Assembly (NCBI GenBank): GCA_022562855.1
Contig: JADFON010000046.1
Coordinates: 1-9,120 of the forward strand
Direction of reading: 5' to 3'
DNA from: Candidatus Zhuqueibacterota bacterium
Lineage (GTDB): Bacteria; SM23-31
Length of the DNA: 9,120 nucleotides
Shown here: positions 1-9,120 of the stretch, piece after piece
Numbering within the stretch: position 1 is the stretch's first letter
Layout of the letters: every line of letters begins with the position of its first letter
Made by a program: the position numbers and the translations under genes
Notes under the pieces: model-generated
Database searches by the model: none
Seen by the model: the letters and a program-made list of their open reading frames with translations, nothing else
Told to the model about the DNA's origin: nothing

Positions 1-67
1 ATTGGGCGCTAGCTCGACGAACGTCCACGAATGGCCGCTTCCAGCATGCCAGGAGTGGCATACTCCA
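1..67. other. GC-rich left edge that does not match NuoJ
   Basis: The first ~70 bases are about 61% G+C by my count, against roughly 37% in the adjoining nuoJ start. On the minus strand the nuoJ frame enters here and loses NuoJ character after residue 18, then stops at TAG (positions 11-9). On the plus strand a frame from position 2 is open for 29 codons (beginning LGASSTNVHEWPLP, ending RPPK) and stops inside nuoJ. I recognise neither reading. The stretch contains an NheI-type palindrome (GCTAGC, 8-13), an SphI-type palindrome (GCATGC, 44-49) and small inverted repeats such as TGCCA-4-TGGCA. It could be a recombination junction, a chimeric contig end or linker sequence. Confidence 0.5.
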
Positions 68-119
68 GCGCCGAACCGACCGCCAAAATAGCAAATCCAT
101 AAAAGAAAATATATTCCAT
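9..119 (-). CDS. nuoJ: NuoJ, N-terminal fragment only (truncated)
   Basis: NuoJ is a membrane subunit of complex I, placed after nuoI in the usual order. The frame starts at ATG 119-117 with MEYIFFYGFAILAVGSAL, which has the character of NuoJ transmembrane helix 1. A family member would go on to an R-N-P-V-type motif and four more helices, about 160-200 residues in all. Here the sequence changes after residue 18 to EYATPGMLEAAIRGRSSS and ends at TAG, giving only 36 residues. The start shares one base with an upstream stop (TAATG, 121-117), a layout typical of translational coupling. Identification rests on the short hydrophobic start plus position downstream of nuoH. The break may be a true truncation or an assembly artefact at the edge. 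Confidence 0.65.
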   Translation of the reverse strand: MEYIFFYGFAILAVGSALEYATPGMLEAAIRGRSSS

Positions 120-166
120 TAATCTGTCCAGATTCGGTTAATTTCTCTTAAAAGGTTTATCTCCCG
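119..166 (-). other. nuoH-nuoJ gap where nuoI is expected
   Basis: In the canonical order nuoI, the 2x[4Fe-4S] ferredoxin-like subunit, sits between nuoH and nuoJ. Here the nuoH stop (169-167) is followed by only 47 non-coding bases before the nuoJ ATG. A GGGAG Shine-Dalgarno-like motif lies directly after the nuoH stop with no ATG at a useful distance. The in-frame stretch after the stop is open for 15 codons (REINLLREINRIWTD) and ends in a TAA overlapping the nuoJ ATG. No CxxCxxCxxxCP motif is present. The gap might hold the ends of a deleted nuoI, but a 15-codon resemblance cannot prove that. Confidence 0.45.
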
Positions 167-1210
167 CTAATTAATAATCGCTACCACAATAGCCGTTACC
201 ATTGCGTTGATTATCGCCAGCGGTAAAAATACTTTCCATCCAAGCGCCATCAACTGGTTGTATTTAAATCTCGGTAATGTCCATCGAACCCATATAAAGG
301 TGATAATAAAGAAAATGGTCTTCAGGCTAAACGACAATACCTGTAGTAACTGTAATATCCAATTCGGCATCGGGATGTTCTCTATCCAGGGTAAATGCCA
401 GCCGCCAAGAAAAAGAGTTGCAATGAGCGCAGATGCTATAACCAGGTTTATATATTCGGCAAGCAGGTACAGCGAAAATTTCATACCGCTATATTCCGTA
501 TGATAACCCGCAACAAGTTCCTGTTCCGCTTCGGCAAGATCAAACGGGAGCCTGTTTGTTTCAGCAAATATCGCTATGACAAAAAGTATAAATGCCAGAG
601 GCTGGAAGAAGATATTCCAACCCGGAATAATACCAAAAAACATTGTATGCTGCTGAGCGACTATATCGGGCAATTTTAATGACCCGGCTACCATTATTAC
701 TCCTATGACAGAAAGACCGAGTGACAGCTCATAACTTATCATTTGCGCCGAAGCGCGCAATCCGCCAAAAAGAGAGTACTTGTTGTTGGAAGCCCATGCA
801 CCGAGAACAATACCGTAAACCCCAAGAGAACCTATAGCGAATATATAGAGAAGACCGAAATCAAGGTTTGCGATTTGCAGCGCTATCTGTTTTCCCGCTA
901 TCGTTATCGAATCGCCGAATGGAATCACGGCGAAAAGTAAAAACGCAGGTATCAAAATAATGGCAGGGGCAATTATGAAGATTACTTTATCCCCGCGTGC
1001 GGTTATTAATTCTTCTTTAAATATGAGTTTGAATAAGTCGGCAAGCGGTTGAAGGAGTCCCTGTGGTCCGACTCGATTTGGGCCAAGCCGGTCCTGGATA
1101 AATGCGCTTAACCGCCGTTCGGCAAGTATAGTCATAGCTGCGGCAGTCAATAAAATCATTAAAACTACCGCAATTTTTGCAACAACAATAAAAATATCAG
1201 CGCTATCCAT
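167..1210 (-). CDS. nuoH: NADH-quinone oxidoreductase subunit H
   Basis: NuoH (ND1 family) is the membrane subunit at the joint of the two arms of complex I. It shapes the entrance of the quinone chamber and begins the proton path. The 347-residue length is normal for the family and the protein is hydrophobic throughout, about eight membrane helices. Visible signatures are AERRLSAFIQDRLGPNRVGPQG (30-51), the GAWASNNKYSLFGGLR loop (137-152), RASAQMISYELSLGL (152-166) and AETNRLPFDLAEAEQELVAG (216-235) followed by HTEYSG. The Glu-rich cytoplasmic loop facing the quinone site is therefore intact. The ATG start has no clear Shine-Dalgarno sequence; it lies 42 bases after the nuoG stop, so reinitiation from nuoG is plausible. 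The next canonical gene, nuoI, is missing downstream. Confidence 0.97.
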   Translation of the reverse strand: MDSADIFIVVAKIAVVLMILLTAAAMTILAERRLSAFIQDRLGPNRVGPQGLLQPLADLFKLIFKEELITARGDKVIFIIAPAIILIPAFLLFAVIPFGDSITIAGKQIALQIANLDFGLLYIFAIGSLGVYGIVLGAWASNNKYSLFGGLRASAQMISYELSLGLSVIGVIMVAGSLKLPDIVAQQHTMFFGIIPGWNIFFQPLAFILFVIAIFAETNRLPFDLAEAEQELVAGYHTEYSGMKFSLYLLAEYINLVIASALIATLFLGGWHLPWIENIPMPNWILQLLQVLSFSLKTIFFIITFIWVRWTLPRFKYNQLMALGWKVFLPLAIINAMVTAIVVAIIN

Positions 1211-3042: not shown

Positions 3043-4314
3043 TCATGCAGCTAATACACACTTTTTCTGTTTTACGTGTTCTTCAAACTCGCTGCGGAAT
3101 TTCGTAACAAATGCCCTCACGGGCCATGCTCCCGCTTCTCCAAATGCGCAAATTGTCCGTCCTTCAATATTATTTGTAATTTCAAGGAGTAAGTCTATGT
3201 CGTCCGGTTCGCCTTGACCGTGCTCAATCCTGTCAAGTATCGATTTCATCCACCCCATACCTTCCCTGCACGGTGTACACTGACCGCACGATTCATGAGC
3301 ATAGAATTTCGAGAGGTTCAGGCAGGCATCGACCATACAGGTTTTGTCGTCCATTACGATAATGCCCGCTGAGCCAAGATGAGAACCGATCTTTGCCAGC
3401 GAATCAAAATCCATTTTTACATCGATTTCACCGGGTGTCAAGACCGGCATCGAAGCGCCGCCGGGAATAACCGCTTTGAGGTTATTGTCATCCCGAATAC
3501 CGTCCGCGCAATCATAGATGAGTTCCTTCAAAGTAATTCCCATAGGAAATTCGTAGAGACCGGGTTTCTTAACATGCCCGCTGATACAATAAACTTTTGT
3601 ACCCGTGCCCCGTTCGACACCAATTGATGCGAATGCGGCATAACCGTTATTAATTATAAAAGGAATATTTGCGAGAGTTTCCGTGTTGTTCACCACCGTG
3701 GGACAGCCAAACGCCCCCTCTAATGCCGGAAACGGAGGTTTGATCCTGGGCCATCCTCTCTTTCCTTCAAGCGATTCTATCAAACCGGTTTCTTCGCCAC
3801 AAATATACGCGCCGGCGCCCCGGTGTACATAAATCCGGTGATCAAATCCACTCCCGAGAATGTTATCCCCGAGATACCCTGCATTCTCCGCCTCTTTTAT
3901 CGCTCTTTCCAGAATTTCAGCTTCGCGATAAAATTCACCCCGGATATAAATATATGACACGTTGCATTTTATTACATAAGAAGAGATAATTTGTCCTTCA
4001 AGCGTTAAATGCGGATCACGAATCATAATTGCCCTGTCTTTAAACGTACCGGGTTCACTTTCGTCGGCATTATTAATCAAGTAGCGCGCTTTCGGAGTGT
4101 CTTTAGGAACGAAGCTCCATTTCATACCTGTAGGAAATCCGGCTCCTCCCCTTCCCCTCAACCCTGACTTTTTCACCTCTTCGATTATTGCATCCTGCGA
4201 CATTTCACCAAGCGCCTTTTTCAGAGCAGAATAACCACCTTCGGCTTCATAGTCTTTAAGGCTGCCGGTGTATCCCGGCTGCTCCATATTTTTCATTATA
4301 ATTTTATTATTCAT
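3043..4314 (-). CDS. nuoF: NADH-quinone oxidoreductase subunit F (NADH/FMN subunit)
   Basis: NuoF (51 kDa family) binds NADH and FMN, takes the hydride and passes electrons to cluster N3 at the tip of the peripheral arm. The 423 residues are normal for the family. Visible are the glycine-rich nucleotide site GLRGRGGAGFPTGMKW (51-66), NNADESEPGTFKDR (81-94) of the FMN/NADH pocket, GAGAYICGEETGLIESLEG in the middle, and the N3 cluster ligands C343, C346 and C349 (SCGQCTPCREG) plus C389. The start overlaps the nuoE stop by four bases (ATGA) and has GGAGGG nine bases upstream (4329-4324), which favours this ATG over Met7 or Met10. E and F are therefore translationally coupled. Nothing is odd in the sequence. 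Confidence 0.98.
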   Translation of the reverse strand: MNNKIIMKNMEQPGYTGSLKDYEAEGGYSALKKALGEMSQDAIIEEVKKSGLRGRGGAGFPTGMKWSFVPKDTPKARYLINNADESEPGTFKDRAIMIRDPHLTLEGQIISSYVIKCNVSYIYIRGEFYREAEILERAIKEAENAGYLGDNILGSGFDHRIYVHRGAGAYICGEETGLIESLEGKRGWPRIKPPFPALEGAFGCPTVVNNTETLANIPFIINNGYAAFASIGVERGTGTKVYCISGHVKKPGLYEFPMGITLKELIYDCADGIRDDNNLKAVIPGGASMPVLTPGEIDVKMDFDSLAKIGSHLGSAGIIVMDDKTCMVDACLNLSKFYAHESCGQCTPCREGMGWMKSILDRIEHGQGEPDDIDLLLEITNNIEGRTICAFGEAGAWPVRAFVTKFRSEFEEHVKQKKCVLAA

Positions 4315-4826
4315 TGTACCGGACCCTCCGCAGAGGGATTATTCACACTCTTGACTGCAAGTCTGTCAATCAATTTATCGATCTTATCCAGCGTCAGGCT
4401 TTCATAATAGTCATCGTTTATCCGCATAGCAGGCGCCGTTCCACATGCCCCGAGACATTCAACTTTTAATAGTGAAAACTGGTTATCGAGGGTCGTTTCC
4501 CCGGGAGAAATTCCAAGCTTGCTTTTCAAATGATCGACAATATTGGCGGCGCCAAGCAATGAACAGGATAGAGTATGGCAAACCTGGATAACATGTTTTC
4601 CCATCTTTTCCCGGTAAAACATTGAATAAAAACTGACAATGTTATTCGTTTCCGCTACTGTCAAATCAAGAAGTCCGGAAACATATTCAATTACTTCGTT
4701 GGATATATAACCGAAATCGCGCTGGGCAAGGAAAAGAGTGGGAATCGAGGCTGCTTTTCGTGTAGGATACCTATCAAGCAGTCCCTCAAATTCATGAAGT
4801 GTTTTTTGTGAAAATTCTACAGACAT
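4311..4826 (-). CDS. nuoE: NADH-quinone oxidoreductase subunit E
   Basis: NuoE (24 kDa family) is a thioredoxin-fold [2Fe-2S] protein that holds cluster N1a next to the FMN in NuoF. The four expected ligands are present: C83 and C88 in CHTLSC, and C124 and C128 in VECLGACGTAP. The N-terminal helical part has the family pattern, with IPTLFLAQRDFGYIS (28-42) and the NNIVSFYSMFY segment (61-71). At 171 residues the length is ordinary. The ATG start has an A/T-rich upstream region and no recognisable Shine-Dalgarno sequence, a trait shared by nuoD and nuoH here. It overlaps nuoF by four bases. A 90-base gap containing short repeats lies between it and nuoD. Confidence 0.97.
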   Translation of the reverse strand: MSVEFSQKTLHEFEGLLDRYPTRKAASIPTLFLAQRDFGYISNEVIEYVSGLLDLTVAETNNIVSFYSMFYREKMGKHVIQVCHTLSCSLLGAANIVDHLKSKLGISPGETTLDNQFSLLKVECLGACGTAPAMRINDDYYESLTLDKIDKLIDRLAVKSVNNPSAEGPVQ

Positions 4827-4916: not shown

Positions 4917-6128
4917 TTATCTATCTAATTCCCCCGCAATAATGTTCAAACTCCCCAGGACGGCGACCGAATCGGACAGCATCTTGCCCTTAAGCATCAT
5001 TGGCAAAACCTGGTAATTGTTTAGAGACGGCGGACGAACACGAAGACGGTACGGGTTATTCGAACCGTCGCTGACTATATAGAAACCGAGTTCTCCGTTG
5101 GGCGATTCGGTTGAAGAGTATATCTCACCTTCCGGAGGACGGATCCCTTTATGTTCCATCGTTATCATAAAATGGTGAATCAACTCTTCCATATTGTTGT
5201 GAACATCCTTCTTATCGGGAAGAATTATTTTCGGGTCGTCGATGTTCACGCTTCCCTCTGGAAGATTTTCTAAGGCTTGTTTAGCAATTATCAGAGACTG
5301 GTTTATTTCCTCCATTCTTACCCAGTACCTGTCGTAAGCGTCACCCCTGTCACCGACAGGAATGTCGAAATCAAAATCCTCATATGATGAATAGGGTTCA
5401 CTTTTTCTAATATCCCACGGCACCCCGGAGCCCCGAAGACAGGGACCGGTAAGACCATAGTTAATCGCCTCTTCACCATCGATAACTCCAATATTCCGCG
5501 TTCTCCCTAAAAATATTTTATTTCTCGTCAACAATGTATCTACTTCTTTAAAGACCGAAGGAAATTTAACAAGAAACTCCCGTGCCGGTTCAAAAAACTC
5601 ATCCGGCAGTTCACGCATCATTCCACCGATCCTCGTATAACTCGTGGTCAACCGGGTCCCGGTTGCAATTTTGAACAGATCGTATAATTTTTCCCTCTGT
5701 TCGAAAAAATACAAAAATGCAGTAAACGCCCCGAGATCCAGCGCCGCAGTGCCAATACTGACGAGATGGTCTGCAATCCTGGAAAGTTCCGCCATTAAGA
5801 CTCGGACGTATTCACACTTTTTTGTTACTTTTATGCCAAACAATTTTTCGCATGCAATCGCAAATCCGATATTATTGTTAAGGGGAGAAAGATAATTCAT
5901 CCGGTCGGACAAAGTAATGAACTGATTGTACGTAAGATGCTCCGCTAATTTTTCAAACCCGGTGTGCAGGTATCCAAGGTGCGGAACGACTTTTAGTATA
6001 GTTTCCCCATCAAGATCGATTTGCAGCCTGAGGGTGCCGTGAGTTGCCGGATGCTGAGGTCCCATACTGATGGTAACCGTCTCGGTCTCTAATCCCGGTG
6101 TTTTGGTTTCGGTCTGAGAATCAACCAT
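4917..6128 (-). CDS. nuoD: NADH-quinone oxidoreductase subunit D
   Basis: NuoD (49 kDa family, related to NiFe-hydrogenase large subunits) forms most of the quinone-reduction site with NuoB. The 403-residue protein is full length and not fused to NuoC, unlike in E. coli. MGPQHPATHG (22-31) is near the start. H30 and Y79 (in SDRMNYLSP) correspond by motif and by a constant offset of eight residues to Thermus His38 and Tyr87, the residues that contact the quinone head group. GPCLRGSGVPWDIRKSEPY, ESPNGELGFY and the terminal LNIIAGELDR are also typical. The ATG start lacks a clear Shine-Dalgarno sequence. Its partner NuoB is not encoded at the usual place in this operon. Confidence 0.98.
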   Translation of the reverse strand: MVDSQTETKTPGLETETVTISMGPQHPATHGTLRLQIDLDGETILKVVPHLGYLHTGFEKLAEHLTYNQFITLSDRMNYLSPLNNNIGFAIACEKLFGIKVTKKCEYVRVLMAELSRIADHLVSIGTAALDLGAFTAFLYFFEQREKLYDLFKIATGTRLTTSYTRIGGMMRELPDEFFEPAREFLVKFPSVFKEVDTLLTRNKIFLGRTRNIGVIDGEEAINYGLTGPCLRGSGVPWDIRKSEPYSSYEDFDFDIPVGDRGDAYDRYWVRMEEINQSLIIAKQALENLPEGSVNIDDPKIILPDKKDVHNNMEELIHHFMITMEHKGIRPPEGEIYSSTESPNGELGFYIVSDGSNNPYRLRVRPPSLNNYQVLPMMLKGKMLSDSVAVLGSLNIIAGELDR

Positions 6129-6212: not shown

Positions 6213-6719
6213 TCACACATTTCTCAAATCTGGAAAATTGCTTCTGTACCCCTGCCCCTGAACCGGAAAATCTTTACGAAGCGGATGTCACTGAAAATCC
6301 TCCGGAAGCAAGAGCTTGCTAAGATCGGGATGTCCCTCAAAATTAATGCCAAATAACTCGGCGACCTCCCGTTCCATCCAATCGGCTGATTTCCACAACG
6401 GAAGCATTGTAGGAACATTCATATCATCTTCCGGCACCCAGACCTTCACTCTCAGACGGTGATAATAGGTATGAGAATGTAAGTGATATATTGCTGCGAA
6501 CCGCTCCTCTCCTCCAATTTTGAAACAATCAACTGCTGTAATATCCACAAGAAAATCGAACGCCGTTTCTTCGGACTCCTTAAGAAATTTCATGATCTCA
6601 AATACATCCTTTTTCTTGAGAAGCAACGTAAGATCATCCCGAAATTCCGCTGTGTCTATAAAAGAATCGGGATAACTGCTCGCTATAGAGGAAATATATT
6701 TTTTTTCTTCTTAAGTCAT
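6213..6719 (-). pseudogene. nuoC: NADH-quinone oxidoreductase subunit C, interrupted by two in-frame stops
   Basis: NuoC (30 kDa family) packs against NuoD in the peripheral arm and has no cofactor. The frame encodes the family signature DWMEREVAELFGINFEGHPDL and an N-terminal part with EFRDDLT and AFDFLVDITAVDC. Read from ATG 6719-6717 the full frame is 168 codons, a normal NuoC length. It is crossed by TAA at codon 3 (6713-6711) and by TGA at 6290-6288. After that TGA the same frame continues with HPLRKDFPVQGQGYRSNF to a final TGA at 6215-6213. Family members have a glycine before HPLRKD, so GGA to TGA is the simplest change. The longest uninterrupted piece with a permitted start is TTG 6626 to 6288 (112 residues), lacking both ends. 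Explanations are a pseudogene, sequencing error, or for the 5' stop a different start or slippage at the A8 tract (6703-6710 area). Confidence 0.85.
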
Positions 6720-6768
6720 AGAGGCAAGATTTGGTAGCGGCAAACTTAAGGAAAGAACCTAATCCCAT
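6634..6768 (-). other. Short ORF at the expected nuoB start; possible nuoB 5' relic
   Basis: NuoB should follow nuoA. An ATG at 6768-6766 overlaps the nuoA stop (ATGGGATTAG), has AAGGG upstream inside nuoA and begins MGLGSF; MGL is a common NuoB start. After about six residues it shows nothing of NuoB: no LACCAIEM motif, no cysteine ligands of cluster N2, no CPPRPE. The frame reads on as LKFAATKSCLYDLRRKK, enters the nuoC region out of frame and stops after 44 residues. Deleting one A from the A8 run would join this frame to nuoC. So it may be the stump of a deleted nuoB, an alternative start for nuoC, or chance. Confidence 0.35.
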
Positions 6769-7121
6769 TCAAAAGCGCCCTTTTTCAATAAATAGAGATA
6801 ACCTATAAGCAGAAGTGCAATAAAAGAAATCATTTCATAGAGTATAAAATTCCCCAAAGAGAGTAAATCCTTATAGACAACCGCCCAAGGATATAGAAAT
6901 ACGATTTCAATATCAAAAATGATAAAAAGCATAGCCAAAAAGTAAAATTTGACATTGAACCGGAAACGCGCGTCACCGACGGGATCAATTCCTGATTCAT
7001 ACGCGATATCTTTGACAGGATCAGATTTACGGGGTCCTAAAAAATGAGCCGCGAGTAAAATCACTACGGTGAACCCTGAACCGAATAACCCCAGAATGAG
7101 AACGGGTATGTATTCGCTCAT
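6759..7121 (-). CDS. nuoA: NADH-quinone oxidoreductase subunit A
   Basis: NuoA (ND3 family) is a small membrane subunit beside the quinone chamber; its long loop moves as the enzyme switches between active and resting states. The 120 residues contain three membrane helices (about 5-28, 61-80 and 90-112). The loop holds YESGIDPVGDARFRFNVKFY (41-60), where a serine (S43) stands at the position often occupied by cysteine (YECG). Helix 2 holds FDIEIVFLYPWA (69-80) with the conserved acidic pair. AGGGG lies five bases before the ATG, so the start is well supported and is the strongest ribosome site in the operon. It is the first gene of the operon, divergent from the cytochrome gene. Confidence 0.97.
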   Translation of the reverse strand: MSEYIPVLILGLFGSGFTVVILLAAHFLGPRKSDPVKDIAYESGIDPVGDARFRFNVKFYFLAMLFIIFDIEIVFLYPWAVVYKDLLSLGNFILYEMISFIALLLIGYLYLLKKGAFEWD

Positions 7122-7539: not shown

Positions 7540-7613
7540 TGTGAAATAATGAACATTAAATAATTAAATTTATCACATGCGTCCAAAGTTAATTTCTTGA
7601 CTTTATGTTGAAT

Positions 7614-7619
7614 GGAGGG
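7614..7619 (+). promoter_or_regulatory. Ribosome binding site GGAGGG of the cytochrome gene
   Basis: GGAGGG lies four bases before ATG 7624 and fixes the start, placing a typical signal peptide at the N-terminus. Confidence 0.85.
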
Positions 7620-7623
7620 AACG

Positions 7624-9120
7624 ATGATTCTTAAAAGAGCATATGTTTTGATTTTACTTTCTGTCGCAGCAGTCTTTATCGCTACATCTTTTTTTGTAGC
7701 CGACCCTCCTACCGCTGAGATAGAACTTCTTGCATTTTCTCCTGAAGATGTGGCAGCCGATCCAACCAAGCTCGTGTCGGCGGGTCTTCCCAACATTGGC
7801 GTCGGTATCCGTGTTTACCTAATTGGAAACAAAGGCGACGCAACTATTACCGGTTATTCCTGGGCGATAGAAACGAAACCCGCAAGTAGTTCTGCCGCAC
7901 TCGATGATGCATCCAGCCGGACACCGTTCTTCACGCCTGACACTTCGGGTCAGTATAAAATAACTCTTACCGTAACCAATGCAGACGGCACAAGCAATCC
8001 TGTAGAGTTATGGATCAATGCAGGCACCTATGTAGGGGTAGGAACCGTTGGAGGCGCCACACCCGATTACAAAAAAAGTCAGTGCGCAGTATGTCACAGC
8101 CGAAAAGAAGAAGCATGGGCGCAAACCAAACACGCAACGGCGCTACAGAAAAAGATCGACGGAGAAGGCGTATCGTTTTTTGCAGAAAGTTGTCTTGAAT
8201 GTCACACCGTCGGTTACAGGGATGATGCAGTAAATGCGGGTTTCGACGATGTTGCATCCGATTCCGGCTGGACCTTTCCTTCTACTATAGAGGCGGGGAA
8301 TTTCCTCGACATGGTAATCAATTTTCCGGAGGTGGCGGCTAAGGCTAATGTACAATGCGAGAATTGCCACGGACCGGGCAGTGAGCACGCAGCAAGAACA
8401 AGCAAGAACCAGATCGCAAAAAGTTTTGAATCGGGCGTCTGTACACAGTGCCATGATGCCCCCTCTTATCATATATTTCCATCACAATGGCAGAATTCCA
8501 AACACTTTGTCGCTACGAAATATCCCTCCGGTCCATCAAGAGGCTCGTGTGTTCAATGCCACACCGGTACAGGGTTTATAACGACATACGATAACGATTA
8601 CGACGAAGTCAATACAACCTATTCCAATATAAACTGCCAGACCTGCCATGATCCTCATTCACGTGATAATGAGCACCAGATTCGGAAAATGGACGATGTA
8701 ACACTTTTCAATGGATTTGTAGCCTCCGGCGGCGGTCTCGGTCAAATTTGTATGAACTGCCACATGTCACGACGCGACGCCGATGAGTATGTTCTCGATT
8801 ATCACTCGCATTATGGTCCTCACAACGGACCTCAGACCGATATGCTGTTCGGGACAAACGCGATAGAATTCGGCAAACCCGTCGGAATCTCTCCCCACAT
8901 GGATGTTGTCGAGAATACTTGCGTAACCTGCCATATGCAGGAATTCACGAGTACCGGCGATGTCAAGACAGACTTTGGCGACCCGGCTATGACCGATGAG
9001 AAAGCAGAAGAATTGAGAGATAATATTTACGGGCACTCATTCTGGAACGTATACACTGACGCCGCCGATACTAAATATGAGAATGTTAAAGCCTGTAACA
9101 CATGCCACGTCGGTATTACA
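7624..9120 (+). CDS. Secreted multiheme cytochrome c with PKD/Ig-like domain, 3' end outside the window
   Basis: This is a periplasmic or cell-surface electron carrier with covalently bound c-type hemes. The visible 499 codons have no stop. Residues 1-26 form a signal peptide (K4-R5, then a hydrophobic stretch 6-25, likely cleavage after FVA). Residues ~33-132 look like a PKD/Ig-like beta domain (GYSWAIETKP, TPDTSGQYKITLTVTNADG). Nine CxxCH heme sites follow, with first cysteines at 154, 190, 245, 273, 309, 338, 376, 433 and 491, and more may lie past the edge. CENCHGPGSEHA (245-256) resembles the cytochrome c554-like family, and CxxCHM occurs twice. Histidines in TKHATAL, NSKHFVA and GHSFWNV are possible distal ligands. 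The exact family and electron partner are unknown. It is divergent from the nuo operon, which hints at respiratory co-regulation but does not show it. Confidence 0.93.
   Translation, partial: MILKRAYVLILLSVAAVFIATSFFVADPPTAEIELLAFSPEDVAADPTKLVSAGLPNIGVGIRVYLIGNKGDATITGYSWAIETKPASSSAALDDASSRTPFFTPDTSGQYKITLTVTNADGTSNPVELWINAGTYVGVGTVGGATPDYKKSQCAVCHSRKEEAWAQTKHATALQKKIDGEGVSFFAESCLECHTVGYRDDAVNAGFDDVASDSGWTFPSTIEAGNFLDMVINFPEVAAKANVQCENCHGPGSEHAARTSKNQIAKSFESGVCTQCHDAPSYHIFPSQWQNSKHFVATKYPSGPSRGSCVQCHTGTGFITTYDNDYDEVNTTYSNINCQTCHDPHSRDNEHQIRKMDDVTLFNGFVASGGGLGQICMNCHMSRRDADEYVLDYHSHYGPHNGPQTDMLFGTNAIEFGKPVGISPHMDVVENTCVTCHMQEFTSTGDVKTDFGDPAMTDEKAEELRDNIYGHSFWNVYTDAADTKYENVKACNTCHVGIT

Follow-up and report, generated by a model that had tools for sequence, protein, structure and literature searches.

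Probable relocation of nuoB and nuoI out of the main complex I operon of an uncultured Zhuqueibacterota bacterium

The genes of complex I, a large assembly that is built in order, are usually thought to stay together. Two of its subunits, NuoB, which carries cluster N2, and NuoI, which carries N6a and N6b, form together with NuoCD the connecting part of the enzyme. In the canonical nuoA-N order, nuoB lies between nuoA and nuoC, and nuoI between nuoH and nuoJ. This order is not found in the stretch of DNA analysed here (the window), 9,120 nucleotides that make up the entire contig C52 of a MAG, G000, which has 491 contigs and is 79.6% complete. The minus strand of the window encodes nuoA, C, D, E, F, G and H and then the first codons of nuoJ. 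The question is where, if anywhere, this genome keeps nuoB and nuoI, and with which enzyme their products would work.

The operon begins with nuoA (6759-7121), followed by a spacer without any gene at the standard place of nuoB (6720-6758) and by nuoC (6288-6719), nuoD (4917-6128), nuoE (4311-4826), nuoF (3043-4314), nuoG (1253-2860) and nuoH (167-1210), the last recognised by the NCBIfam NuoH models; all of them lie on the minus strand. The best explanation of this gene set is that in this uncultured bacterium the window carries the main complex I operon, the one for the NADH-oxidising enzyme. The reading frame of its nuoC is broken twice, by a TAA at codon 3 (6713-6711) and by a TGA (6290-6288) that precedes a conserved C-terminal tail; this tail, HPLRKDFPVQGQGYRSNFPDLR, matches the intact nuoC of a relative (G002, below). 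With two in-frame stops the operon may therefore be in recent decay in the source strain, or the consensus may be in error. The start of nuoJ (63-119, minus strand) belongs to a cut gene whose likeness to relatives ends after about 18 codons, and bases 1 to about 62 of the window are unrelated sequence. They are probably a chimeric contig end, because they are GC-rich (60% versus 43%) and unlike the nuoJ of relatives. A repeat or mobile element at bases 1-70 was ruled out, no second copy being present in the genome. On the plus strand, a divergent ORF rich in CxxCH haem motifs (7612-9120) runs off the contig; it weakly resembles UshA-like and DmsE-type multihaem proteins, with all scores below cut-off.

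The standard place of nuoI is a spacer (120-166, minus strand) that holds neither a gene nor a remnant. The first-pass annotation had described 47 bases between the nuoH stop and the nuoJ start, with no nuoI, and the coordinates agree: the nuoH TAG occupies 169-167 and the nuoJ ATG 119-117, which leaves bases 166-120 between them. It had also pointed to an orphan GGGAG site and to a 15-codon open stretch whose TAA overlaps the nuoJ ATG. Both are present, the GGGAG directly 3' of the nuoH stop, but neither is evidence of a gene. The 15 codons (CGG GAG ATA AAC CTT TTA AGA GAA ATT AAC CGA ATC TGG ACA GAT) span the 45 nt from one stop of the nuoH frame, the nuoH TAG, to the next, the TAA over the nuoJ start; they contain no ATG, GTG or TTG start and do not resemble NuoI, and chance is expected to produce open stretches as short as this. 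A nuoI remnant in the gap is thereby ruled out. A search of the whole contig found nuoI nowhere else in the window, and nuoB was likewise not found between nuoA and nuoC.

The absence of nuoI concerns this position in the operon and not the genome. The genome-wide search that the first-pass annotation had proposed located NuoI on contig C444, in the gene order iscS-iscA-tpx-nuoI, and a matching NuoB on contig C351, where lipA-nuoB is followed by a class-III aminotransferase gene. NuoI scores 133.7 bits against TIGR01971 (curated cut-off 113.05) and keeps both CxxCxxCxxxCP motifs for N6a and N6b, CVACELCATACP and CIYCGMCEEACP; NuoB scores 222 bits against TIGR01957 (curated cut-off 142.7) and keeps the four cysteine ligands of N2, in CC, GAC and PGCPP. 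Between G000 and a second family member, G001, with synonymous sites close to saturation, dN/dS is 0.07 for nuoB, and pN/pS is 0.12 for nuoI, 0.16 for nuoH and 0.28 for nuoG; these ratios indicate that both detached genes are under purifying selection. G000 thus encodes A-H including B, as well as I, with the defects of nuoC and nuoJ described above; K-N of this set (set 1) fall outside the assembly and are present in the sister genome G002. A complex that works without NuoB and NuoI, both truly lost, would be favoured only by their absence from the operon and has next to no probability: genome searches recovered both genes intact, which refutes loss for the genome as a whole. The earlier suggestion of real losses or of a modified complex is likewise unsupported, both proteins being encoded with all their cluster ligands.

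The two contigs could still mislead if nuoB and nuoI really lie in the operon and the assembly left them out of the contig, or if C351 and C444 come from another organism. The fragmented state of the MAG (80% complete in 491 contigs), the probably chimeric contig end and the interrupted nuoC are what such an artefact would have in its favour. Against it stands G002, of the same family but of a different genus, in which the operon A-C-D-E-F-G-H-J-K-L-M-N runs uninterrupted and without nuoB and nuoI on one 28.7-kb contig. In the same genome lipA, nuoB and nuoI are adjacent on the minus strand of L157 (nuoB 10162-9683, nuoI 9639-9100). G001, whose nuoA-nuoC junction falls outside the assembled sequence, has the shared neighbourhood too, in the order lipA-X-nuoB-iscS-tpx-nuoI. 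Thus lipA-nuoB is common to G000 and G002, and iscS-tpx-nuoI to G000 and G001. Beyond nuoI, G000 and G002 share an amidohydrolase, a TPR protein, an aldehyde dehydrogenase (ALDH), NadE and RsmI, named from their own sequences, and this synteny ties C444 to the family. The GC contents of the three contigs of G000 agree as well (0.43, 0.45 and 0.42). Misbinning of C351 and C444 is ruled out by the synteny with G002, and an artefact of either kind is highly unlikely.

A different question is whether the detached genes serve the operon of the window at all. A second complex I without EFG is encoded on contig C57 of G000 (A-B-C-D-H-I-J-K-L and the start of M), and the window complex might use the NuoB and NuoI of that operon, with the detached copies serving another enzyme. 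The C57 proteins, however, are of the EFG-less type (set 2) and 37% (NuoI) and 54% (NuoB) identical to the set-1 proteins I1 and B1. In the trees, the detached proteins of three family members, NuoB as well as NuoI, stand apart from the C57 type and group with the in-operon copies of G004 and G005 (UFBoot 95 for both), to which they are orthologous, and no gene of another enzyme able to use them adjoins them. Identity and trees together rule out the C57 copies as partners of the window operon, and the alternative, which can point to the B and I that the C57 complex possesses, is very improbable. Judged from the trees, the detached NuoB and NuoI are by descent the partners of the window operon. 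It is very probable, on this comparison of sequences, that nuoB and nuoI were relocated from the operon, remain in the genome and supply the operon's partner subunits. Expressed from the second site, they would join the same complex in trans; we infer that they assemble with the subunits encoded in the window.

How the move took place is suggested by more distant genomes. In G004, of the same class and another family, A-B-C-D-E-F-G and H-I-J-K stand on two separate contigs, and G005 has A-B-C-D-E; theirs is the closest family in which the standard order is retained. In the ancestor of the window's family, nuoB and nuoI would have moved as a linked pair to a site after lipA. The pair now has other genes between or beside its members in two of the three genera (iscS, iscA and tpx, and in G000 the aminotransferase after nuoB). 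The simplest account would be that the pair moved once and that other genes later came to separate it. The first-pass annotation's idea of a relocated B-I pair therefore suits the family, as seen in G002 with nuoB-nuoI adjacent after lipA and neither gene in the operon; in G000 the two sit on separate contigs, and the adjacency is that of G002.

The order A-C-D-E-F-G-H-J, for which a survey of related genomes had also been proposed beforehand, recurs in G002 and, elsewhere, in a Latescibacterota MAG (L012/G060), so that the canonical order is absent from these as from the window. In G060 the operon reads A-C-D-E-F-G-H-J-K-L, without B and I, and nuoI lies 4 bases ahead of an iscU/nifU-like gene. 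Its detachment of B and I may be one event with that of the window's family or a separate event. G060 also has a second complex I operon (A-C-D-H-J) without B and I, and a nuoB-nuoI pair of the second type adjoins the first-type nuoB on another contig (L163:8705-11468; L170:7470-12759).

Detached nuoB is not rare in a wider survey of 213 genomes. The listed nuoB copies (the best 150 matches) were checked, and a copy was called detached when no A, C, D or H lay within about 7 kb. Among these best 150 matches there are at least 14 detached loci in at least 11 families besides that of the window; nuoB-nuoI pairs were found in G009 and G152, of one family, and in G216. In 4 of the 11 other families (again among the best 150 matches) detached nuoB has an immediate, co-directional Fe-S assembly neighbour (sufC, erpA/iscA or hesB). 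G135, assembled as a single contig, has sufR-like - nuoB - sufC - sufB (L206:3995-8338), with SufB and SufC above and the SufR-like protein below cut-off. The orders are iscS - radical SAM - erpA/iscA - nuoB - nuoI, with lipA further on, in G216, nuoB - hesB-like - apbC-like in G131 and nuoB - hesB-like in G150. Co-directional, closely spaced isc, suf or lip genes beside nuoB or nuoI thus occur in G000, G001, G060, G216, G131, G135 and G150. As a side observation, the order iscA-nuoA-nuoH-nuoG-nuoI, another linkage of isc and complex I genes, occurs in two genomes of one family, G098 and G222 (L264:6953-10948; L265:3304-7352). Separately, sodB is a neighbour of a solitary nuoB, adjacent or at most about 3 kb away, in two more families (G058; G207/G080; L228:6876-8580; L231; L232), and in G058 a YjbQ-like gene is found there too.

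It is an even call whether the relocation, though real, is neutral, the Fe-S and lipoate genes having become neighbours by chance and without regulatory coupling. Rearranged nuo orders are common, the pair of G002 follows lipA only, and in many genomes (G009, G152, G215, G207, G080, G098 and G222) nuoB or nuoI alone is detached without a nearby Fe-S assembly gene. Eight solitary nuoI loci of the survey have no such neighbour, and the idea that solitary nuoI is generally found among Fe-S genes is rejected on that ground. Against neutrality, the direct neighbours in 4 of 11 families compare with only two Fe-S assembly genes, both in one locus, in a control of 111 loci and 1.04 Mb of non-nuo sequence, or about 0.2% per gene; the control consisted of flanks of nuo operons, not of random genes. 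By a binomial estimate the probability is about 2e-7, rising to about 1e-5 at a threefold rate; the estimate is optimistic, the neighbour class having been picked after the first cases were seen, from the best 150 matches, with nuo flanks as controls. The nuoI of G060, next to its iscU-like gene, and the isc genes beside nuoI in the window's family also speak against chance.

Making the [4Fe-4S] subunits NuoB and NuoI together with their cluster supply would be beneficial, and the site beside Fe-S and lipoate synthesis genes would have been kept because it ties expression of the segment with three [4Fe-4S] clusters to Fe-S supply. That the site was retained for this reason in the window's family is a tentative suggestion drawn from gene neighbourhoods. 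Equally tentative is the broader proposal that nuoB and nuoI, with N2, N6a and N6b, have repeatedly and independently moved to Fe-S assembly neighbourhoods (suf, isc, hesB-apbC, iscU and lipA), so that the last electron-transfer segment may be synthesised in step with Fe-S supply or under oxidative-stress control.

Compared with the 14-subunit nuoA-N operon of the E. coli and Thermus type, the subunits, the order of the remaining genes and the orthologous NuoB and NuoI with all ligands are the same; the difference is that nuoB and nuoI lie elsewhere, near lipA and isc genes. Dispersed complex I genes as such are already known. Rhodothermus marinus has two operons, and its nqo8 (NuoH) and nqo9 (NuoI) stand by themselves outside them; nuoB (nqo6) stays in its operon. 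The NUO-2 set of Nitrospina gracilis is spread over the genome with nuoB2 outside the operon, but there nuoI stays in the cluster and nuoF2 is the other solitary gene (PMC3578206). Caldithrix abyssi, like G000, combines an NADH-type set with a set lacking NuoEFG, but all of its NADH-type set lies in a single cluster (PMC5317091). Seen from isc and suf Fe-S assembly clusters, the likeness is that in some lineages a detached nuoB or nuoI stands in a co-directional isc or suf neighbourhood; the difference is that the products of nuoB and nuoI are client proteins, not assembly factors. Searches of an open-access literature library found no report of a joint removal of B and I, nor of either gene being placed among suf or isc genes.

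For annotators, the operon alone is insufficient to call such a complex I incomplete. For the family itself, the genes of the two subunits linking the NADH module with the quinone site appear to have left the operon as a pair, and detached copies in several unrelated lineages adjoin genes that build their clusters; if this arrangement was selected, it would be a natural record of how Fe-S supply couples to the assembly of complex I.
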